Shown: positions 2 through 14,402 of the stretch, piece by piece | Layout: the number at the start of each line of letters is the position of its first letter | Numbering within the stretch: the first letter of the stretch is position 1 | Assembly (NCBI RefSeq): GCF_000732535.1 | Contig: NZ_APNK01000013.1 | Span: 1 to 64,000, forward strand | DNA from: Salinisphaera hydrothermalis C41B8 | GTDB taxonomy: Bacteria > Pseudomonadota > Gammaproteobacteria > Nevskiales > Salinisphaeraceae | Reading direction: 5' to 3' | DNA: 64,000 nucleotides | Made by a program: the position numbers and the translations under genes | Notes under the pieces: generated by a model | Told to the model about the DNA's origin: nothing | What the model saw: only the letters and a program-made list of their open reading frames with translations | The model's database searches: none

Positions 2-544
2 ATGGCTCTTGCGAAGCAGCTTGCCACTTATCGCACTGTCCAGAAATCAGGGGCCAGTTCAGTACGCACCCCGCTTTACGAGGCGATCCGACGGATTCCC
101 AATGCCATATTGGTTCATGCATTCGTCGACTCGGCAACACTAATCGGCGGCGCGAAGCTCACCGCTTCCTGCACCGGCTCAGCGGTCTTCGAAGGCATGC
201 AGGCGGGCATTCCGGGCCTGACCTTTGCCCGCACCTGGCATTCGGACTGTCCAAGCGGCCCCTTCTGCGCCGATGCACAAAGCGTGGCCGAGACCGTACC
301 GCAGCTCCTGGCCAAGCCCACCGACGAAGTTCGCAACGACTATCAGCAATTTCTGATCGCTCATGCGCCTTGGTGGTTTCTTGGCGCCAACGACGATCGC
401 GCCGTGGCGCGTTCGGCCTTTACCCGCGAACGACTGCGCGCTTCCGTGGCCGAGGTGCTACGCAGTTTGACCATCGACGACAGCGCCGAATCCACCGGCG
501 TTCGGCTCGCTAGAGACAACACCCGCGGCGAACGCTCGGCCTAA
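2..544 (+). CDS. Capsule-type polysaccharide transferase, C-terminal part (cut by window edge)
   Basis: Only about 180 C-terminal residues are in the window and the reading frame is open to the left edge, so the first in-frame ATG need not be the start. The visible part matches the C-terminal third of the 484-residue protein at 11,992-13,446: both share an LTASC-x-GS-x-VFEG block, then GIPGLTF, TWHS and a GANDDRA tail. That fold is the capsule-polysaccharide-synthesis type, where the conserved block lies in the nucleotide-sugar-binding domain. It converges on the leftward glycosyltransferase set with only 16 bases between them. The family assignment is by pattern and the sugar transferred is unknown. 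Confidence 0.7.
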   Translation: MALAKQLATYRTVQKSGASSVRTPLYEAIRRIPNAILVHAFVDSATLIGGAKLTASCTGSAVFEGMQAGIPGLTFARTWHSDCPSGPFCADAQSVAETVPQLLAKPTDEVRNDYQQFLIAHAPWWFLGANDDRAVARSAFTRERLRASVAEVLRSLTIDDSAESTGVRLARDNTRGERSA

Positions 545-6818: not shown

Positions 6819-7931
6819 ATGCTACCCCACGCGACCATGGACAAAGTCAAGATCTACGGTGCCGGTTCGATCGGCAACCATATGGCCCACGCGGCGCGCT
6901 CGCTCGGCTGGTCAGTCGCGATCTGCGACCCCGATCCGGCGGCACTCGAGCGCACACGGCACGATATCTACCCCAGCCGCTATGGCCAGTGGGACGAGGC
7001 AATCGAGCTGTACGATCCCGCCGATGCGCCGACTGGCCAACACGACCTCATCATCATCGGCACACCGCCGGATGCGCATATGCCCCTGGCGCTTGCCGCC
7101 ATCGACGAGGGCCCGAAGGCGATTCTGATCGAAAAGCCGGCCAGCACGCCGGAATCCGAACTCGATCGCCAGGTGTTCGAACGTGCCCGTGCAGCGGGGG
7201 TGCGCGTGTTCGTCGGCTATGATCACGTCGTCGGCCTTGCGACCCAACGCTTTGATGAACTGGCGGGTACCGACACGGTCGGAACTGTCACCACGCTGGA
7301 TGTGGAATTCCGCGAGTACTGGGGCGGCATCTTTGCGGCCCACCCCTGGCTGGACGGCCCCGCCGACAGCTATCTCGGCTACTGGCGACGCGGCGGCGGC
7401 GCGCTGGGCGAACACTCGCATGCGCTCAATCTCTGGCAGCACATGGCCCACGTGGTGGGCGCCGGGCGCGTGGTCGAAGTCTCGGCGCTGCTCGATATTG
7501 TCACCGACGGCGCCGCGGAATACGACCGGCTGGCGGCGTTGCACTTGACCACCGAACACGGGCTGCGCGGGCGCGTGGTTCAGGATGTGGTCACCCAGCC
7601 CACGCGTAAATGGGCCCGACTGCAAGGCAGCACCGGTTACGTCGAATGGGCGGCCGGATATGCCCCGGGGGCCGATGCCGTCATCCACGGCTCGGGGAAT
7701 TCGGCTCCCGAAACAGAGAAGTTCACCAAGAGCCGGCCCGACGATTTCATTGCCGAGCTCGATCACATCAATACACATGTGCAGGATGGATCGACCTCGC
7801 CGCTGGAACTGTCGCGCGGGCTGGATACCATGATGGTGATTGCGGCGGCACACCGCTCGCACCGGGAGCAACGGGTCGTGCGTCTCGATGAAGCCGAACC
7901 CTACGACATTCGCGGCATGGCCGGCGCCTGA
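6819..7931 (+). CDS. Gfo/Idh/MocA-family NAD(P)-dependent oxidoreductase
   Basis: A 370-residue protein with an N-terminal Rossmann fold (IYGAGSIGNH), then LIIIGTPPDAH and ILIEKPAS, the family's EKP motif with the conserved lysine. The C-terminal half is the mixed sheet domain. An ATG at 6837 would also serve as start. First gene of the nonulosonate-type operon, 35 bases before the NeuB-like gene. Family members oxidise or reduce sugars and nucleotide sugars; here it probably prepares or edits the aldose that the synthase condenses with phosphoenolpyruvate. That role is inferred from position. Confidence 0.85.
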   Translation: MLPHATMDKVKIYGAGSIGNHMAHAARSLGWSVAICDPDPAALERTRHDIYPSRYGQWDEAIELYDPADAPTGQHDLIIIGTPPDAHMPLALAAIDEGPKAILIEKPASTPESELDRQVFERARAAGVRVFVGYDHVVGLATQRFDELAGTDTVGTVTTLDVEFREYWGGIFAAHPWLDGPADSYLGYWRRGGGALGEHSHALNLWQHMAHVVGAGRVVEVSALLDIVTDGAAEYDRLAALHLTTEHGLRGRVVQDVVTQPTRKWARLQGSTGYVEWAAGYAPGADAVIHGSGNSAPETEKFTKSRPDDFIAELDHINTHVQDGSTSPLELSRGLDTMMVIAAAHRSHREQRVVRLDEAEPYDIRGMAGA

Positions 7932-7966: not shown

Positions 7967-9595
7967 ATGCGTCAGTCCTATGATTTCAATGACCTGTTCG
8001 TGTTCGAGATGGCCAACAACCATCAAGGCGACGTCGAGCATGGCCTGAGGATCATTCGCGAAATGGGCGCCGCAGCCGCCGAATACGGGGTCCGCGCGGC
8101 GATCAAATTCCAGTTCCGGCAACTCGATACGTTCATCCATCCGGACTATCGCGAGGCCAGCGAACCCAAGCATATCCAGCGGTTTTTATCGACCGAGTTG
8201 TCGCGCGACGAATTCCAGACGATGTTCGACGCGGCCCGCGCCCAGAATCTGCTGACCATGTGCACGCCGTTCGATGAAGCGTCGGTGGACGTGATCGAGG
8301 AGATGGGTTTCGACATCATCAAGGTCGCCAGTGCCTCGTGCCAGGACTGGCCGTTGCTCGAACGGATTTCCGAGGCCAACCTCCCGGTGATCGTCTCCAC
8401 GGGCGGCCAGGATATTGCGGCCATCGACAACATCTCGAGCTTCTGCCATCACCGCGGTATCGATCATGCGCTGATGCATTGCGTGGCGTTGTATCCCACC
8501 CCGGACGAGCACTGCCAACTCAACCAGATCGATCGCCTGCGCGAACGTTATCGCGATACCACGATCGGCTGGTCGACCCACGAGGATCCGGGCGACACCG
8601 ATGTCGTGATCGCCGCCTATGCCAAGGGCGCGCGCATGTTCGAAAAACATGTCGGTGTCGTCGATGGGCCGGTCACTCAACTTAATGCCTATTCCGCCGA
8701 CCCGGATCAGGTCAGGGCCTGGCTGGCCGCTTACAAGAAAGCCGTGGCCCTATGCGGCGACGATACCCGCGAAACCCGGCATACCGAGGCCGAGCGCGAT
8801 GCGCTGGCAGCGCTGCAACGCGGCGTCTATGCCCGCGAACCGCTGGCGCCGGGACAGCAATTAACGATGGATGATGTCTTTTTCGCCATGCCGCTGCAGG
8901 ATGGCCAACTGACCTCGGGCCGCTTCAAACCGGGCACGACGGTCAAACAAGCCGTGGAATCCAATGGCGCGGTGGCCTTCAGCAACGTCGATATTCCCAG
9001 CGACCCGGACCGCAAGGTCATTCAGTCATCGCTGCATCAGATCAAGGCGATGCTCAACGAGGCGCGTATACCGCTGAACTCGGACTTCAAGGTGGAATAC
9101 TCGCATCACCACGGCGTCGAGAATTTTCGCGAAGTTGGCGCGGTTCTCATCGACGTGGTCAATCGCAAGTACTGCAAGAAGATCGTCGCGCAGTTGCCCG
9201 GCCAATATCACCCGGCCCACTTTCACAAGCTCAAGGACGAGACCTTCATCATTGTCCACGGCACCCTGCATCTGGAGGTCGACGGCCATCACAAAGTGCT
9301 CTCGCCGGGCGAAACCGCGGTCGTACAACCCGGGGTATGGCATCACTTCTGGACCGAGACCGGCGTGATTTTCGAAGAAATCTCGTCGACACATAAAAAC
9401 GACGATTCGTTCTACAAGGACAAGCGCATCAACCGCATGCCACGCAGCGCACGCAAAACGATCGTCGACCACTGGGGCCGCTTCACCCTGCGTGACGAGG
9501 ACGAGGCGGAAAACGAGATCTGGCCGCCGCAGCGGCGCGCCGCTGAAGACGAAGCATCCGCCGAGGCCGAGCCCAACTCGGCAATCGACGGCTAA
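7967..9595 (+). CDS. NeuB-type sialic acid synthase fused to SAF and cupin domains
   Basis: A 542-residue protein with three domains. Residues 10-260 are the NeuB barrel (FEMANNHQGD, IKFQF, MCTPFDEASVD, STGG, EKH), which condenses an aldose with phosphoenolpyruvate. Residues 285-345 are the SAF (antifreeze-like) domain that caps the active site. Residues 370-475 are a cupin with metal-site pattern H418-x-H420, E425 and H459. A 50-residue acidic tail follows. Classical NeuB ends after SAF at about 345 residues, so the cupin is extra; it resembles sugar-isomerase-type cupins and might supply the aldose. AGAGGAG stands upstream of the ATG. The stop abuts the phosphatase gene. Confidence 0.88.
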   Translation: MRQSYDFNDLFVFEMANNHQGDVEHGLRIIREMGAAAAEYGVRAAIKFQFRQLDTFIHPDYREASEPKHIQRFLSTELSRDEFQTMFDAARAQNLLTMCTPFDEASVDVIEEMGFDIIKVASASCQDWPLLERISEANLPVIVSTGGQDIAAIDNISSFCHHRGIDHALMHCVALYPTPDEHCQLNQIDRLRERYRDTTIGWSTHEDPGDTDVVIAAYAKGARMFEKHVGVVDGPVTQLNAYSADPDQVRAWLAAYKKAVALCGDDTRETRHTEAERDALAALQRGVYAREPLAPGQQLTMDDVFFAMPLQDGQLTSGRFKPGTTVKQAVESNGAVAFSNVDIPSDPDRKVIQSSLHQIKAMLNEARIPLNSDFKVEYSHHHGVENFREVGAVLIDVVNRKYCKKIVAQLPGQYHPAHFHKLKDETFIIVHGTLHLEVDGHHKVLSPGETAVVQPGVWHHFWTETGVIFEEISSTHKNDDSFYKDKRINRMPRSARKTIVDHWGRFTLRDEDEAENEIWPPQRRAAEDEASAEAEPNSAIDG

Positions 9596-10291
9596 TTGGT
9601 GGCGGCTTTGATCAAGGCCGTGGTCTTTGATTTCGACGGTACGCTAGTGCTGTCGAATCAAATCAAATACGACGCGTTTCAGCAGACGGCCGAAGCCCAC
9701 GGCCTGGACCCGGAGCGCGTGATGGCGCTGCGCCACACGCATCCGGGGGCCAACCGGCACCAAATCTTTGCCGAGCTGTCGCGCCAATTACGGGCCGAGG
9801 GGTTCGATCACATCCCGGACGGCCCGACTTTCGTTGCCACCTATGCTGACATCGTGACCCGTGAGGTGACGCGCTGCGACTGGGTGCCGGGCGCCGAGGC
9901 CACGCTGGACCGACTGGCCGCACGGGGTCTCGCATTGTTCATCAATTCCGCCACCCCAAGTGACGGTCTGCTCCCGATCGTCGAAAAGCGCGGCATGCAC
10001 ACACGCTTTCAGGCGGTTCTGGGCGGCCCGGACAGCAAAATCGACAACCTGAATCGCATTGCACGACAGACGGCTCTCGAACCGACCGCCATGGTCATGA
10101 TCGGCGATGGCGAAGACGATCGCATAGCGGCGGCGTCGTTTGGTTGTCATTTCATCGGCGTTGAGCTCGAGACCGAGGACCACGGCCGCCCGGCTCACCG
10201 CCTAACGGTAAGACCCACGCATCTCGTGCCGGACCTGAGTGGTGTACCCGAGCTTATCGATGCGATCGTAGCAGACCGGAGCACGCCGTAA
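9596..10291 (+). CDS. HAD-superfamily phosphatase
   Basis: A 231-residue HAD hydrolase. Motif I is FDFDGTLV with the nucleophile Asp, motif II is INSATPS, and motif IV is MIGDGEDD. The start is TTG or the next codon GTG, immediately after the synthase stop, so translation is probably coupled. Between a NeuB-type synthase and a CMP-sugar synthetase, the natural reading is dephosphorylation of a nonulosonate phosphate, as in the KDN/Neu5Ac 9-phosphate route. The substrate is inferred. Confidence 0.82.
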   Translation: MVAALIKAVVFDFDGTLVLSNQIKYDAFQQTAEAHGLDPERVMALRHTHPGANRHQIFAELSRQLRAEGFDHIPDGPTFVATYADIVTREVTRCDWVPGAEATLDRLAARGLALFINSATPSDGLLPIVEKRGMHTRFQAVLGGPDSKIDNLNRIARQTALEPTAMVMIGDGEDDRIAAASFGCHFIGVELETEDHGRPAHRLTVRPTHLVPDLSGVPELIDAIVADRSTP

Positions 10292-10293
10292 TC

Positions 10294-10995
10294 ATGTACG
10301 CCGACTACAAGATTCTGGCGGTCGTACCCGCGCGCGGCGGTAGCAAGGGCGTACCGCTGAAAAACATCCAGCCGATCCAGGGCATCCCGCTGGTGGCCCG
10401 CGTCGGCCATCTGATATCAGAGTTGCCGGAGATCGACCGCGCGGTCGTTTCCACCGACCACGACGAAATCGCCCGAATCGCCGAGGCATCCGGCCTGGCC
10501 GCCGATTGGCGTCGGCCACCGGCGCTGTCCGGCGACCGGATTGGCGATCTCGACGTGCTCACGCATGCCTTGAACGAGACCGAACAACGCGATGGGCAAC
10601 GCTACGACATCGTGCTCATGCTCCAGCCGACATCGCCCATGCGCACCGCCGCGCACGTTCGCGACACCTACCGCAAACTGATCGACGAAGGGCGGGATGC
10701 AGTCTGGACCGTCTCCGAAACCGATTCGAAATACCATCCACGCAAACAACTGACGCTAACGGACGACCAACTCGGCTATTACAGCCAGGACGGCGGCCAG
10801 ATCATCGCGCGCCAACAGCTGGATGCGCTCTATCACCGCAACGGTGCCGCCTATGCTTTCACTCGCGACTGTCTCGTCGAGCAACGCAACATCATGGGCG
10901 CGAACACGGCCGGCTTGATCACCGAGGACATGGTGAGCATCGATACGCCCTTCGATTTCCGGCTCGTCGAGTTCTTGCTCGCCGACAAGCATTAG
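10294..10995 (+). CDS. neuA: CMP-sialic acid synthetase-type cytidylyltransferase
   Basis: A 233-residue enzyme that activates a keto-deoxy sugar acid with CTP. It has the P-loop-like ARGGSKGVPLKN at about 10-21, LQPTSPMR, NGAAYAF and the metal-binding SIDTPFD. Length matches the NeuA/PseF/LegF group. It starts 2 bases after the phosphatase stop and is the last gene of the operon. A weak stem (11,017-11,038) with five Ts follows. Product would be the CMP-sugar used by the GT29-domain protein at 2,645-3,748. Which sugar is made cannot be read from sequence. Confidence 0.87.
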   Translation: MYADYKILAVVPARGGSKGVPLKNIQPIQGIPLVARVGHLISELPEIDRAVVSTDHDEIARIAEASGLAADWRRPPALSGDRIGDLDVLTHALNETEQRDGQRYDIVLMLQPTSPMRTAAHVRDTYRKLIDEGRDAVWTVSETDSKYHPRKQLTLTDDQLGYYSQDGGQIIARQQLDALYHRNGAAYAFTRDCLVEQRNIMGANTAGLITEDMVSIDTPFDFRLVEFLLADKH

Positions 10996-11137: not shown

Positions 11138-11539
11138 ATGACCTCGAAGATCGTATCCGACGAACTCTGGGCCATTGTGGAGCCGCTATTGCCGGAGCCT
11201 GAAGTGAGCGCGCGCGGCGGTCGCCCGCCGATTTCCAATCGGGCGGCGCTGACCGGCATTCTGTTCGTACTGCGCTCGGGCATTCCTTGGCACATGCTGC
11301 CCCAGGAGATGGGCTGCGGCTCAGGTGTGACGTGCTGGCGTCGACTCCGGGACTGGCAACAGGCGGGGGTCTGGGATCGGCTGCACGAGGTGTTGTTGCA
11401 GCAGCTGCATCAGGCTGATCGGCTGGACTGGTCCCGCGCCTGCGTCGACAGCGCCAGCCTGGCGGCTAAAAAGGGGGATCGGCCATCGGTCCCAACCCGG
11501 TCGACCGCGGCCGCCCTGGGAGCAAACGACACCTCGTGA
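11138..11539 (+). CDS. IS5-family transposase, upstream frame (orfA)
   Basis: 133 codons. Residues 1-110 are the DUF4096-type N-terminal domain ([40 protein letters not shown]). ACVDSASL holds the first catalytic Asp of the DDE triad. After AAKKG the frame loses IS5 similarity, while the -1 frame takes it up. The full enzyme therefore needs a ribosomal frameshift. Confidence 0.85.
11470..11476 (+). other. Putative -1 ribosomal frameshift site
   Basis: The heptamer A_AAG_GGG is in the zero frame of orfA. Slipping back one base gives [20 protein letters not shown], the expected IS5 continuation, with no gap or stop. This placement explains the split transposase without assuming a mutation. Confidence 0.7.
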
Positions 11540-11940
11540 CGAATCGGTATGGCCGACCTCTGGCCGTCCAGCTGTCCGGGGCCAACCGAAACGATTGCCA
11601 GCTATTGGCGTCGTTGTTGGATCGCATACCACCCATTCAAGGGCGACGGGGTCGCCCACACTATCGACCTCGGAAGCTGCATGCCGACAAGGCCTACGAT
11701 CACCGGCATTGCCGTCGCGCGTGCCACCGACGCAGCATTCGGCCCCGTATCGCGCGGCGGGGTGTGGAAGCTAGTCAAAGGCTCGGACGCCATCGCTGGG
11801 TTGTCGAGCGTACGTTCGCCTGGTTGAACGGATTCAGACGGTTAGCTATCCGGTACGAGCGTCGGGCTGACATTCACTACGCCTTGACGGTTCTCGGATG
11901 CGCGATGATCTGCTTCAACCACTTAAAACATGGGTTTTGA
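11536..11940 (+). CDS. IS5-family transposase, downstream frame (orfB)
   Basis: Contains the rest of the DDE domain: LHADKAYDH with the second Asp, and [21 protein letters not shown] with the catalytic Glu and the Y-(2)-R-(3)-E-like signature of IS4/IS5 enzymes. In this frame sequence similarity extends upstream to the slippery site at 11,470. The listed start is a GTG inside orfA; expression is more likely by frameshift than from that codon. Confidence 0.85.
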
Positions 11941-11991: not shown

Positions 11992-13446
11992 TCATGTTTT
12001 CGGACTTAGGAGGGCCTGAACTTCGGTACGCATGGACGCCACCAGAACGTTACGATCTCGCGCTGATAATTGCGCCGCCCGATCATCGTTGGCTCCGACA
12101 AACCAATGCCGGCTTTCGTCGCGGATAAACTGCGCGAGGTCCGCTCGCACCTGCTCGGGTGTTTTTGCCGCGAGCTCGTTCATCATTCCGGGCAATGCCT
12201 TCATATCGCCAATCGCTGGCGCACTGGCACAGGCCGAGTGCCACGTCGGCACGAAAGTCAGCCCCGGGATGCCGTGCTTGAGCCCTTCGAATACGGAAGA
12301 CCCATTGCAGGAAGCCGTAAGCTCGGCTCCGGCAATCAACCCATCCGCGGGTGCGAATGCATCCATGAGCACGGCATTGCCGAGTTCGGCAATACCCTGA
12401 TACAGCGGCTGGCGCCCGTAATGCAGACAACGCAGATCCGGCCGGCGATCGCCCAACTGACGCGGATGCTCCTTGACCACCAAGATCCAGTCACGCGGCA
12501 TCGCCCGCGCCAGCGCTGTAATAGCTCGGAGTTGATCGTGGTAAAAGCCCGCCTCCGGCACCGTGGTGCGTTCGGGTTGGTAATGCAGGGCGAAATAGAT
12601 ATAGGGGGCGGACGGGGCGTCTCGCCGGGCATGCCGAGTCAAATACGATAGATCGGCTCGCCGTTCGCGATCACGCCGCAACGCATAGCGATACAAACGC
12701 CACCAGGGTTGGCGGAAATAGTGATGATGCCGATAACCATGCCGCGCCCGATAATACCGGCGTATCAGCTTCCACTTGAGCCCGAGCCCCATGGAGCGAT
12801 ACGCCGCGGATTCCGCCCGGCGGTTGATTTCATGCGACCGCTTGAGCCGCCCCGACACTTCGCCCAGCGTGTCGAGCCATGCATCTGCCGACAAGCCTGC
12901 CGCCGCCGGCGGCAACGGCGCACGTCCGCAAACCAGGTCGGTATCGAAAAACATACCGTCCGGCAGCTGCGTTCGTTTAAAGATATAAGCCGGCACCTTC
13001 AGGCGCCGACATACGTGAAAGAACACGATATGCCAAGGGAAGTGCGGCGTATGGGCGAACCAAACCACAAGAGTCGACGCCCGCTCCGAAATCCACGCCT
13101 CGAGTCCACCCACTAACGCCCAGAAATACCGCTCGGCCTCGCGTGCCGGCAACGGGTCGAGAAACACTCGGTCCAACGCTCGCGCAAACTGCCGCCATGC
13201 CTCGGCATATTCTATTTCCATGACCGCATCGACGACCTCGTTGGCACCCGCGGTGTGCGGCACCTCGTCGACGCGTTGATAGGGTTGCCAATCGAAATAT
13301 GCGAAGTCGTGGCCCCGACCCGCCGTATCAGCCCGCCCTGAACGGCCACCGATCAGAACATCGTGTTGCTGGGCAAACCCGAGCAACATCTCCTGCATGA
13401 TGGGGTAATCGGCGAAATCGGCACCAAACAGCAGCTTGCGTTGCAT
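11992..13446 (-). CDS. Capsule-type polysaccharide transferase, full length
   Basis: A 484-residue protein. A longer frame to 13,632 only shadows hldD; MQRKLLFGADFADYP at 13,446 begins 2 bases after the hldD stop and is the better start. The C-terminal domain has YIYFALHYQPERTTVPEAG, ILVVKEHPRQLG, LTASCNGSSVFEG and GIPGLTF, the Capsule_synth-type donor-binding pattern. The last 170 residues are paralogous to the left-edge gene at 2-544, which lies in the opposite orientation. Operon with hldD suggests a role in lipopolysaccharide or capsule assembly. Donor and acceptor are unknown. Confidence 0.75.
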   Translation of the reverse strand: MQRKLLFGADFADYPIMQEMLLGFAQQHDVLIGGRSGRADTAGRGHDFAYFDWQPYQRVDEVPHTAGANEVVDAVMEIEYAEAWRQFARALDRVFLDPLPAREAERYFWALVGGLEAWISERASTLVVWFAHTPHFPWHIVFFHVCRRLKVPAYIFKRTQLPDGMFFDTDLVCGRAPLPPAAAGLSADAWLDTLGEVSGRLKRSHEINRRAESAAYRSMGLGLKWKLIRRYYRARHGYRHHHYFRQPWWRLYRYALRRDRERRADLSYLTRHARRDAPSAPYIYFALHYQPERTTVPEAGFYHDQLRAITALARAMPRDWILVVKEHPRQLGDRRPDLRCLHYGRQPLYQGIAELGNAVLMDAFAPADGLIAGAELTASCNGSSVFEGLKHGIPGLTFVPTWHSACASAPAIGDMKALPGMMNELAAKTPEQVRADLAQFIRDESRHWFVGANDDRAAQLSARDRNVLVASMRTEVQALLSPKT

Positions 13447-13448
13447 GC

Positions 13449-14402
13449 TCACGCAGTACGCCGAGCGGCCAACCAATCGAGATAACGCGGCACCCCCTCT
13501 TCTACCGGCATGAACGTGTTCGGGTAGCCCGCCTGCTGCAAGGCGGCCATATCGGCCTCGGTGAAACTCTGATAACGCCCAACCAGCGACTTCGGGAAAT
13601 CGATATAGCGTTTCTCGCCGCGGCCATGCCAAGCGATCACGGCGTCGGCCACATCGTTGAACGTCTGGGAGCGGCCGGTGCCGCAGTTATAGATGCCCGA
13701 CACCTGCGGGTTGTCGAGCAACCACAGATTCACCGCGACCACGTCGTCGACATGGATGAAATCGCGCCGCTGTTCGCCACTGCCATAGCCGTCCGAACCC
13801 GCGAACAGGCGGCACTCGCCATCCTCCGCGATTTGGTTCGAAAAGTGCCGTGCCACGCTCGCCATTCGACCCTTGTGGCCTTCGCGCGGGCCATAGACGT
13901 TGAAATAACGCAGCCCGACGACCTGCGAGCGGCGCGCTCGTCCTTGTGCCCGTACGTACTGGTCGAAGGCAAACTTGGAAAACGCATACATATTGAGCGG
14001 TTTCTCGGCGTTGCGGCGTTCGACAAAATCCGGGCCCATGCCGTAGACCGACGCCGACGACGCATAAAGAAACGCCACCCGATGGCGCTGGCACCAGGCA
14101 TGCAGCGTTTTCGAATACGTGAAGTTGCGCGCCATGACATAGCGCCCGTCCCATTCCGTGGTGTCGGAACAAGCACCTTCGTGGAATACCGCATCGATGC
14201 CGCCGGGCATGTCGTCGGCCGCCATGCGGCGTTCGAGTTCGTCGTATTCCAGGTAATCGGCAAAGTCGAGATCGGCCAGGTTCAGACATTTATGGCCATC
14301 GGCTAGGTCATCGACGATCAGGATGTCGCGAACGCCACGGGCGTTGAGCCCAGCCACGATATTGCTGCCAATGAAGCCGGCAGCGCCGGTCACAATGATC
14401 AT
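13449..14402 (-). CDS. hldD: ADP-L-glycero-D-manno-heptose 6-epimerase
   Basis: A 317-residue SDR-fold epimerase converting ADP-D-glycero- to ADP-L-glycero-manno-heptose for the lipopolysaccharide inner core. It begins MIIVTGAAGFIGSN (NADP-binding GxxGxxG), then FHEGACSDTTEWDG typical of HldD, the catalytic Y-x3-K (YAFSK), RYFNVYGPREGHKGRMASV and the C-terminal heptose-binding region. The longer frame to 14,624 is not real: the ATG at 14,402 overlaps the TGA of the glycosyltransferase relic upstream. Downstream it is followed after 2 bases by the capsule-type gene. Confidence 0.93.
   Translation of the reverse strand: MIIVTGAAGFIGSNIVAGLNARGVRDILIVDDLADGHKCLNLADLDFADYLEYDELERRMAADDMPGGIDAVFHEGACSDTTEWDGRYVMARNFTYSKTLHAWCQRHRVAFLYASSASVYGMGPDFVERRNAEKPLNMYAFSKFAFDQYVRAQGRARRSQVVGLRYFNVYGPREGHKGRMASVARHFSNQIAEDGECRLFAGSDGYGSGEQRRDFIHVDDVVAVNLWLLDNPQVSGIYNCGTGRSQTFNDVADAVIAWHGRGEKRYIDFPKSLVGRYQSFTEADMAALQQAGYPNTFMPVEEGVPRYLDWLAARRTA

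Follow-up and report, generated by a model that had tools for sequence, protein, structure and literature searches.

The described route closest to the one considered here is the Kdn-9-phosphate synthase pathway of Bacteroides thetaiotaomicron and Prymnesium parvum, whose known steps are the condensation of mannose-6-phosphate with PEP, a phosphatase reaction and activation by a CMP-Kdn synthetase; no fused isomerase is apparent in the accessible part of the report, in which the word "cupin" is absent (PMC6200933), and BT1714 was compared by its description only. D-lyxose isomerases (7nzo, 2y0o and 3kmh/3mpb; PF07385) are free-standing cupins that act on free sugars. In the accessible text on the Thermofilum D-lyxose isomerase, the sugar contacts are given as K62, H75, H77, K86, E88, H143, E156 and D163, and the characterised close relatives of the cupin discussed below use free sugars and not phosphates (PMC8378251). 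The first-pass annotation of the present locus had allowed that the fusion encoded there might already be a well-studied family. No description of a NeuB-SAF-cupin fusion was found in the open-access papers searched, yet the fusion proves to be common and is not singular to this genome.

The fusion protein of Salinisphaera hydrothermalis C41B8 is encoded in the window (the whole stretch of DNA analysed, 64,000 nucleotides from the start of contig NZ_APNK01000013.1; Table 1) within a cassette of four plus-strand genes for an oxidoreductase, the synthase, a phosphatase and a CMP-sugar synthetase. The last three genes are spaced by 0–2 bases and are therefore probably co-translated, and the cassette is flanked on both sides by minus-strand genes, some of which resemble polysaccharide genes. 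No second NeuB-family gene occurs in this genome. The fusion is present in two of 14 Salinisphaera genomes, this one included, and its closest named relative among the best 80 of 124 loci is the S. japonica protein (84% identity). Two further proteins, encoded at 11992–13632 (minus strand) and 2–544 (plus strand), have similar C-termini with a GANDDRA stretch and are possible candidates for the glycosyltransferase of the pathway; no identity is claimed for the minus-strand protein, which had no match in Pfam, NCBIfam or the PDB and a homologue of which also adjoins the cassette in locus L011.

Table 1. Features of the cassette and of the fusion protein, in window coordinates.
Feature	Position	Strand	Basis
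Gfo/Idh/MocA oxidoreductase, cassette gene 1	6819..7931	+	Pfam
NeuB-SAF-cupin fusion protein, 542 aa	7967..9595	+	Intact ORF, ATG at 7967, stop at 9593–9595; AlphaFold2 model
NeuB-type PEP-condensing barrel, residues 9–270	7991..8776	+	Pfam NeuB; structural match to 3g8r; H205, H228
SAF-like domain, residues 275–343	8789..8995	+	Structural match to NeuB/3g8r up to 342–343; Pfam SAF below cut-off
Cupin of D-lyxose/L-ribose isomerase kind, residues 345–503	8999..9475	+	pLDDT 93.9 when modelled alone; match to 7nzo
Metal and catalytic motif H418-x-H420-xx-K423-x-E425	9218..9241	+	Conservation, profile alignment
Stretch from H459 (fourth metal ligand) to E471 (sugar contact)	9341..9379	+	Conservation, profile alignment
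Acidic tail, residues 504–542, mostly predicted disordered	9476..9592	+	pLDDT < 50 at 509–542
HAD_2 phosphatase, directly 3' of the synthase	9596..10291	+	Pfam HAD_2, 69.6 bits
CMP-sugar synthetase, CTP_transf_3	10294..10995	+	Pfam; closest NCBIfam model PseF, score below its cut-off
IS5-family transposase, two overlapping frames, after the CMP-sugar synthetase gene	11138–11940	+	

The architecture of NeuB, SAF and a complete cupin that the first-pass annotation had read in this single frame is borne out by the AlphaFold2 model (monomer, mean pLDDT 89.9), in which NeuB-SAF extends to residue 343 and is followed by an isomerase-like cupin. Pfam NeuB (PF03102) covers residues 36–265 with 152.4 bits against a gathering score of 22.1, which places the barrel in this family. 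The C-terminal SAF domain scores 13.9 bits, under the Pfam cut-off of 21, and is recognized by structure in the predicted model, where sialic acid synthase 2wqp aligns over residues 3–342 (Z 31.8) and 3g8r over residues 8–343 (Z 38.9, 334 residues, rmsd 1.6). The latter, a "probable spore coat polysaccharide biosynthesis protein E" from Chromobacterium violaceum, is the closest solved NeuB-SAF relative at 43–44% identity; its solved chain, to which the comparison refers rather than to the whole gene, has 350 residues and no cupin. It heads a structural ranking that continues with 6ncs, NeuB and PseI (Z 29.3). NeuB and PseI have the barrel, the SAF-like lid and the metal histidines in common with the fusion protein, but are 18–26% identical to it and lack a cupin, and the equivalog cut-offs for N-acetylneuraminate synthase (TIGR03569; 144.3 against 399.65 bits) and PseI (TIGR03586; 126.5 against 340.25 bits) are missed. 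H205 and H228 fall on histidines in Neisseria meningitidis NeuB that we take to be the two metal-binding ones of its barrel; H228 is kept in all 80 bacterial proteins compared and H205 in 79, and R285 of the SAF-like domain is invariant (81 of 81, window included). S124 stands where N. meningitidis NeuB has the glutamate of its SGE stretch.

For the cupin half, Pfam Cupin_2 matches residues 410–465 (43 bits against 27.2) and Lyx_isomer (PF07385) residues 439–484 (38 bits against 20.8), so that the gathering score of the latter is passed; the D-lyxose/D-mannose isomerase model NF051472 is missed at equivalog level (30.4 against 350 bits), and the cupin-type mannose-6-phosphate isomerase PF01050 stays below its gathering score (15.1 against 23.6 bits). 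The 12 solved entries closest to the predicted cupin, ranked by Z, are all aldose-ketose isomerases. D-lyxose isomerases come first (7nzo, Z 19.3, 142 residues aligned, rmsd 1.8; 2y0o, Z 18.9; Escherichia coli 3mpb, Z 17.4), as they also do with Foldseek, and L-ribose isomerases follow at Z 14.8–15.8. The isomerase alignments span 140–153 residues, approximately the whole domain, whereas phosphomannose isomerases (Z 13.3 and 12.8) and other cupins rank below with about 100 residues aligned.

Profile alignment equates K405, H418, H420, K423, E425, H459 and E471 with K62, H75, H77, K86, E88, H143 and E156 of the Thermofilum D-lyxose isomerase. The window protein thus keeps seven of the eight sugar contacts and the four metal ligands (three His and one Glu); the counterpart of D163 is out of register, with an invariant D480 two residues further on. 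The metal set H418/H420/E425/H459 had been picked out in the first-pass annotation, and it holds across the family. Among the window protein and 80 bacterial relatives, H420, K423, E425, H459 and E471 are each present in 81 of 81, K405 in 80 and H418 in 74, the remaining seven having glutamine at 418. The same residues are kept in 57 viral fusion proteins, save for glutamine at 418 in 20 of these and a single K405M. This change creates a QxH motif, and Gln97 and His99 are named among the residues crucial for catalysis and zinc binding in type I and II phosphomannose isomerases in the accessible part of a cyanophage study (PMC9602691); the substitution therefore need not kill the site. The cupin shares its whole-domain fold and metal site with D-lyxose isomerases, but is 27–29% identical to them, is fused to a synthase and has additional invariant SHHxG and RK residues. 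The invariant or near-invariant motifs of the domain are SHHxG (379–383), NRxYCxK (399–405) and RKT (496–498); SHHxG and RK, which lie outside the lyxose isomerase contacts, may bind phosphate or carboxylate. The acidic tail noted in the first-pass annotation is present in the window protein; it is not a feature of the family, because most relatives end near residue 503.

From the predicted fold and the conserved active-site residues we are fairly confident that the cupin is an active sugar isomerase. We favor, with somewhat less assurance, a bifunctional protein in which the cupin isomerizes a ketose, probably phosphorylated, to an aldose and the barrel condenses this with PEP into a deaminated ulosonate such as Kdn-9-phosphate. 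In the proposed mechanism, the C-terminal metal cupin would turn a ketose into a 2-hydroxy aldose and the N-terminal NeuB barrel, by analogy with its family, would add PEP to it; the likeliest route would lead from fructose-6-phosphate to mannose-6-phosphate and, with PEP, to Kdn-9-phosphate, from which the HAD phosphatase would release Kdn for activation to CMP-Kdn by the CMP-sugar synthetase; the Gfo/Idh oxidoreductase would modify the sugar at some point along the way. An aldose-ketose isomerase needs a C2 hydroxyl, from which we deduce that the product is a deaminated 3-deoxy-2-ulosonic acid and not an acetamido sugar (Neu5Ac, Leg or Pse). That this product is Kdn itself is put forward tentatively. 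A phosphorylated substrate is probable, as the phosphatase, which adjoins the synthase gene here and recurs in three forms elsewhere (see below), suggests phosphorylated intermediates. The Kdn-9-phosphate pathway, as the accessible report describes it, likewise combines a synthase with a phosphatase and a CMP-sugar synthetase (PMC6200933). Both predicted active sites lie in one protein, and direct transfer of the aldose between them, the substrate channelling suggested in the first-pass annotation, would be possible. Against this reading we count the use of free sugars by the relatives of the cupin, the lack of a visible HAD gene at some loci with a cytidylyltransferase, the unmatched D163, the glutamine that some members have in place of metal ligand H418 and the existence of a cupin-less relative.

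The closest solved relatives of the cupin, acting on D-lyxose and L-ribose, are pentose isomerases, and its substrate could accordingly be ribulose-5-phosphate (or xylulose-5-phosphate), converted to arabinose-5-phosphate (or lyxose-5-phosphate), which the barrel would then turn into octulosonate-8-phosphate, leading to Kdo or a Kdo isomer. We consider this improbable. Kdo-8-phosphate synthases do share the barrel fold, but at Z ~23 (KdsA) they are much more distant from the model than the NeuB-type structures (Z 38.9 to 29.3), and the CMP-sugar synthetase of the cassette, although it matches KdsB models weakly, scores best with PseF (115 bits, NCBIfam). Bacillota, which are not known to make Kdo lipopolysaccharide, account for 25 of the 80 carriers (best 80 of 124 loci). 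A different order of events is conceivable, in which the cupin acts after the synthase and epimerizes, ring-opens or isomerizes the 2-keto acid of the ulosonate in the manner of KdgF. KdgF-type cupins act on keto-uronates, KdgF turns up in the structural comparison (5fq0, Z 12.5), and the invariant R496, K497 and SHHxG stretch outside the shared contacts could bind a carboxylate or phosphate; KdgF is nevertheless almost seven Z units under the lyxose isomerases over about 100 aligned residues, and the lysines and glutamate that lyxose isomerases use on the sugar are kept, which makes this order unlikely. A binding, regulatory or structural dimerization module devoid of catalysis, as in some cupins that only bind ligands, would suit the glutamine found at 418 in some members, but is very unlikely given that three metal ligands and further polar sugar contacts are kept across 137 proteins in a catalytic-site pattern and that cupin and barrel have similar mean identities (0.51 and 0.53).

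Isomerization remains the best-supported reading of the modelled cupin. The first-pass annotation had proposed that it makes an aldose from a ketose; the fold, the metal ligands and seven of eight contacts strongly support an isomerase, the ketose-to-aldose direction agrees with the aldose requirement of the synthase, and the particular sugar is our suggestion. If correct, this would amount to a compact enzyme for sialic-acid-type sugars from fructose-6-phosphate and PEP. According to the accessible part of a study of wastewater granules, Kdn ranked second in abundance among the nonulosonic acids of the exopolymers in three of the four granule types measured, and current annotation cannot separate Kdn from Neu5Ac synthases (PMC10483923). 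Should a fused cupin go with a deaminated product, it would serve as a gene marker for Kdn-type synthesis that starts from plain sugar phosphates and needs no UDP-GlcNAc.

The distribution of the fusion was analyzed in the best 80 of 124 related genome loci, to which the window was added to give 81 proteins. Barrel and cupin are found together at all 80 loci and the protein is full length at 79, the exception (L080) being cut by the contig start, so the fusion does not reflect chance; these loci and the viral contigs described below (57 of 60) rule out chance or an annotation artefact of one genome. By NCBI names, which place 75 of the 80 loci, the carriers belong to at least 13 phyla, candidate phyla included; five loci have no phylum. 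Distance matrices of barrel and cupin are correlated (Mantel r 0.82), with none of 999 permutations as high. The fusion is an old, conserved and widespread joining of two known enzyme families. Plasmid spread was considered and rejected: 89 plasmid records match, none covering more than 80% of the query.

A full-length match to the cupin was obtained in 12 of 398 Pseudomonadota genomes, in each case inside an open frame of 502–567 aa, and no free-standing form of the fusion cupin was seen in these 398 genomes; after the 12 fused proteins, cupin matches fall to E 2e-12 or weaker with partial profile coverage. With a threshold of E 1e-40, the barrel subfamily occurs in 13 of the same genomes. 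Twelve of these have the fused protein, and the thirteenth, G097 (L162:9190-12134), has a 362-aa cupin-less relative (42% identity) that adjoins a ThDP-type gene, labelled from the start of its sequence and not by family search. The NeuB part can therefore occur without the cupin.

Relatives are also encoded on 60 IMG/VR contigs (L102–L161), 57 of which carry the full-length fusion (for example L102, L108, L111 and L114). Among 44 contigs tested, the T4-type major capsid protein gp23 was found on seven and terminase on ten (nine above the cut-off), so that one or both are present on 11; L102 additionally encodes a head-tail adaptor and a tail sheath stabilizer. The other 33 have neither, which says little because the contigs are fragments. 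Uncultured T4-like phages thus carry such a synthase. A collection of 50,697 cultured-phage records yields three matches, each over less than 80% of the query. A cyanophage "mannose-6-phosphate isomerase" was considered as a possible relative and set aside; these enzymes are classical phosphomannose isomerases by the paper's description, and neither "cupin" nor "sialic" occurs in its accessible part (PMC9602691).

The neighboring genes of 68 genome loci (3 kb or more on each side; the window is counted among them) and of 49 viral loci were tallied with HMMs built from the same loci as were counted. A cytidylyltransferase is found at 51 of the genome loci, a HAD protein at 47 and a Gfo/Idh/MocA oxidoreductase at 19; the phosphatase and CMP-sugar synthetase expected of the Kdn-9-phosphate pathway are both present at 44 loci, as at the window. 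No HAD is visible in the flanks of seven of the 51 cytidylyltransferase loci. The viral loci have a cytidylyltransferase in 28 cases, a HAD protein in 25 and both in eight. The phosphatase takes three forms: the product of a separate gene, a C-terminal extension of the synthase, or a C-terminal domain of the CMP-sugar synthetase. A Gemmatimonadales MAG encodes a 760-aa NeuB-SAF-cupin-HAD protein (L016:6968-9247) with HAD_2 at residues 546–729, and CMP-sugar synthetases with a C-terminal HAD-like domain (DIDG...TARG...KPxAD-YxDD) are encoded at L043:5854-6927, L057:5737-6795 and in relatives. The full HAD motif test is passed by 32 of 35 long CMP-sugar synthetases, and the L043 tail matches a solved capsule-biosynthesis protein (PDB 9iqw, E 4e-10).

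An acetolactate-synthase-like ThDP enzyme is the partner at 14 of the genome loci, 13 of which lack a cytidylyltransferase, and at 19 viral loci, none of which has one. In a tree of 137 proteins, a single clade of 44 (SH-aLRT 99), with bacteria and viruses mixed, takes in all 39 ThDP-only proteins, and the window protein falls in the cytidylyltransferase part; in this quick tree, one change explains the switch between ThDP enzyme and cytidylyltransferase, which counts as one event rather than as several independent ones. A NeuB-domain gene next to a ThDP gene has been described before, in the sfmABCDE operon of Shewanella oneidensis, which is needed for flagellin modification, so the pairing as such is known. 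There, as in the ThDP clade, the partners of the NeuB-domain protein are a ThDP enzyme, a methyltransferase and a reductase; it has 290 aa, however, "cupin" is absent from the accessible text, and the ulosonate is considered to be pseudaminic-acid-like (PMC3765264). A broader proposal, which we regard as doubtful, is a self-feeding synthase that takes a ketose phosphate of central metabolism directly to a ulosonate phosphate, the aldose never leaving the protein, in bacteria and T4-like phages, with two outputs: CMP-activation in the set of clades to which the window protein belongs, and in one clade a ThDP enzyme that would replace the cytidylyltransferase and decarboxylate or ligate the 2-keto acid. 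If true, the ThDP output would be an undescribed route to higher-carbon sugars. The loci of the ThDP clade (parts of L050–L088 and of L104–L125) often also contain epimerase, C-methyltransferase and NUDIX-like genes, in Lachnospiraceae as well as in phages.
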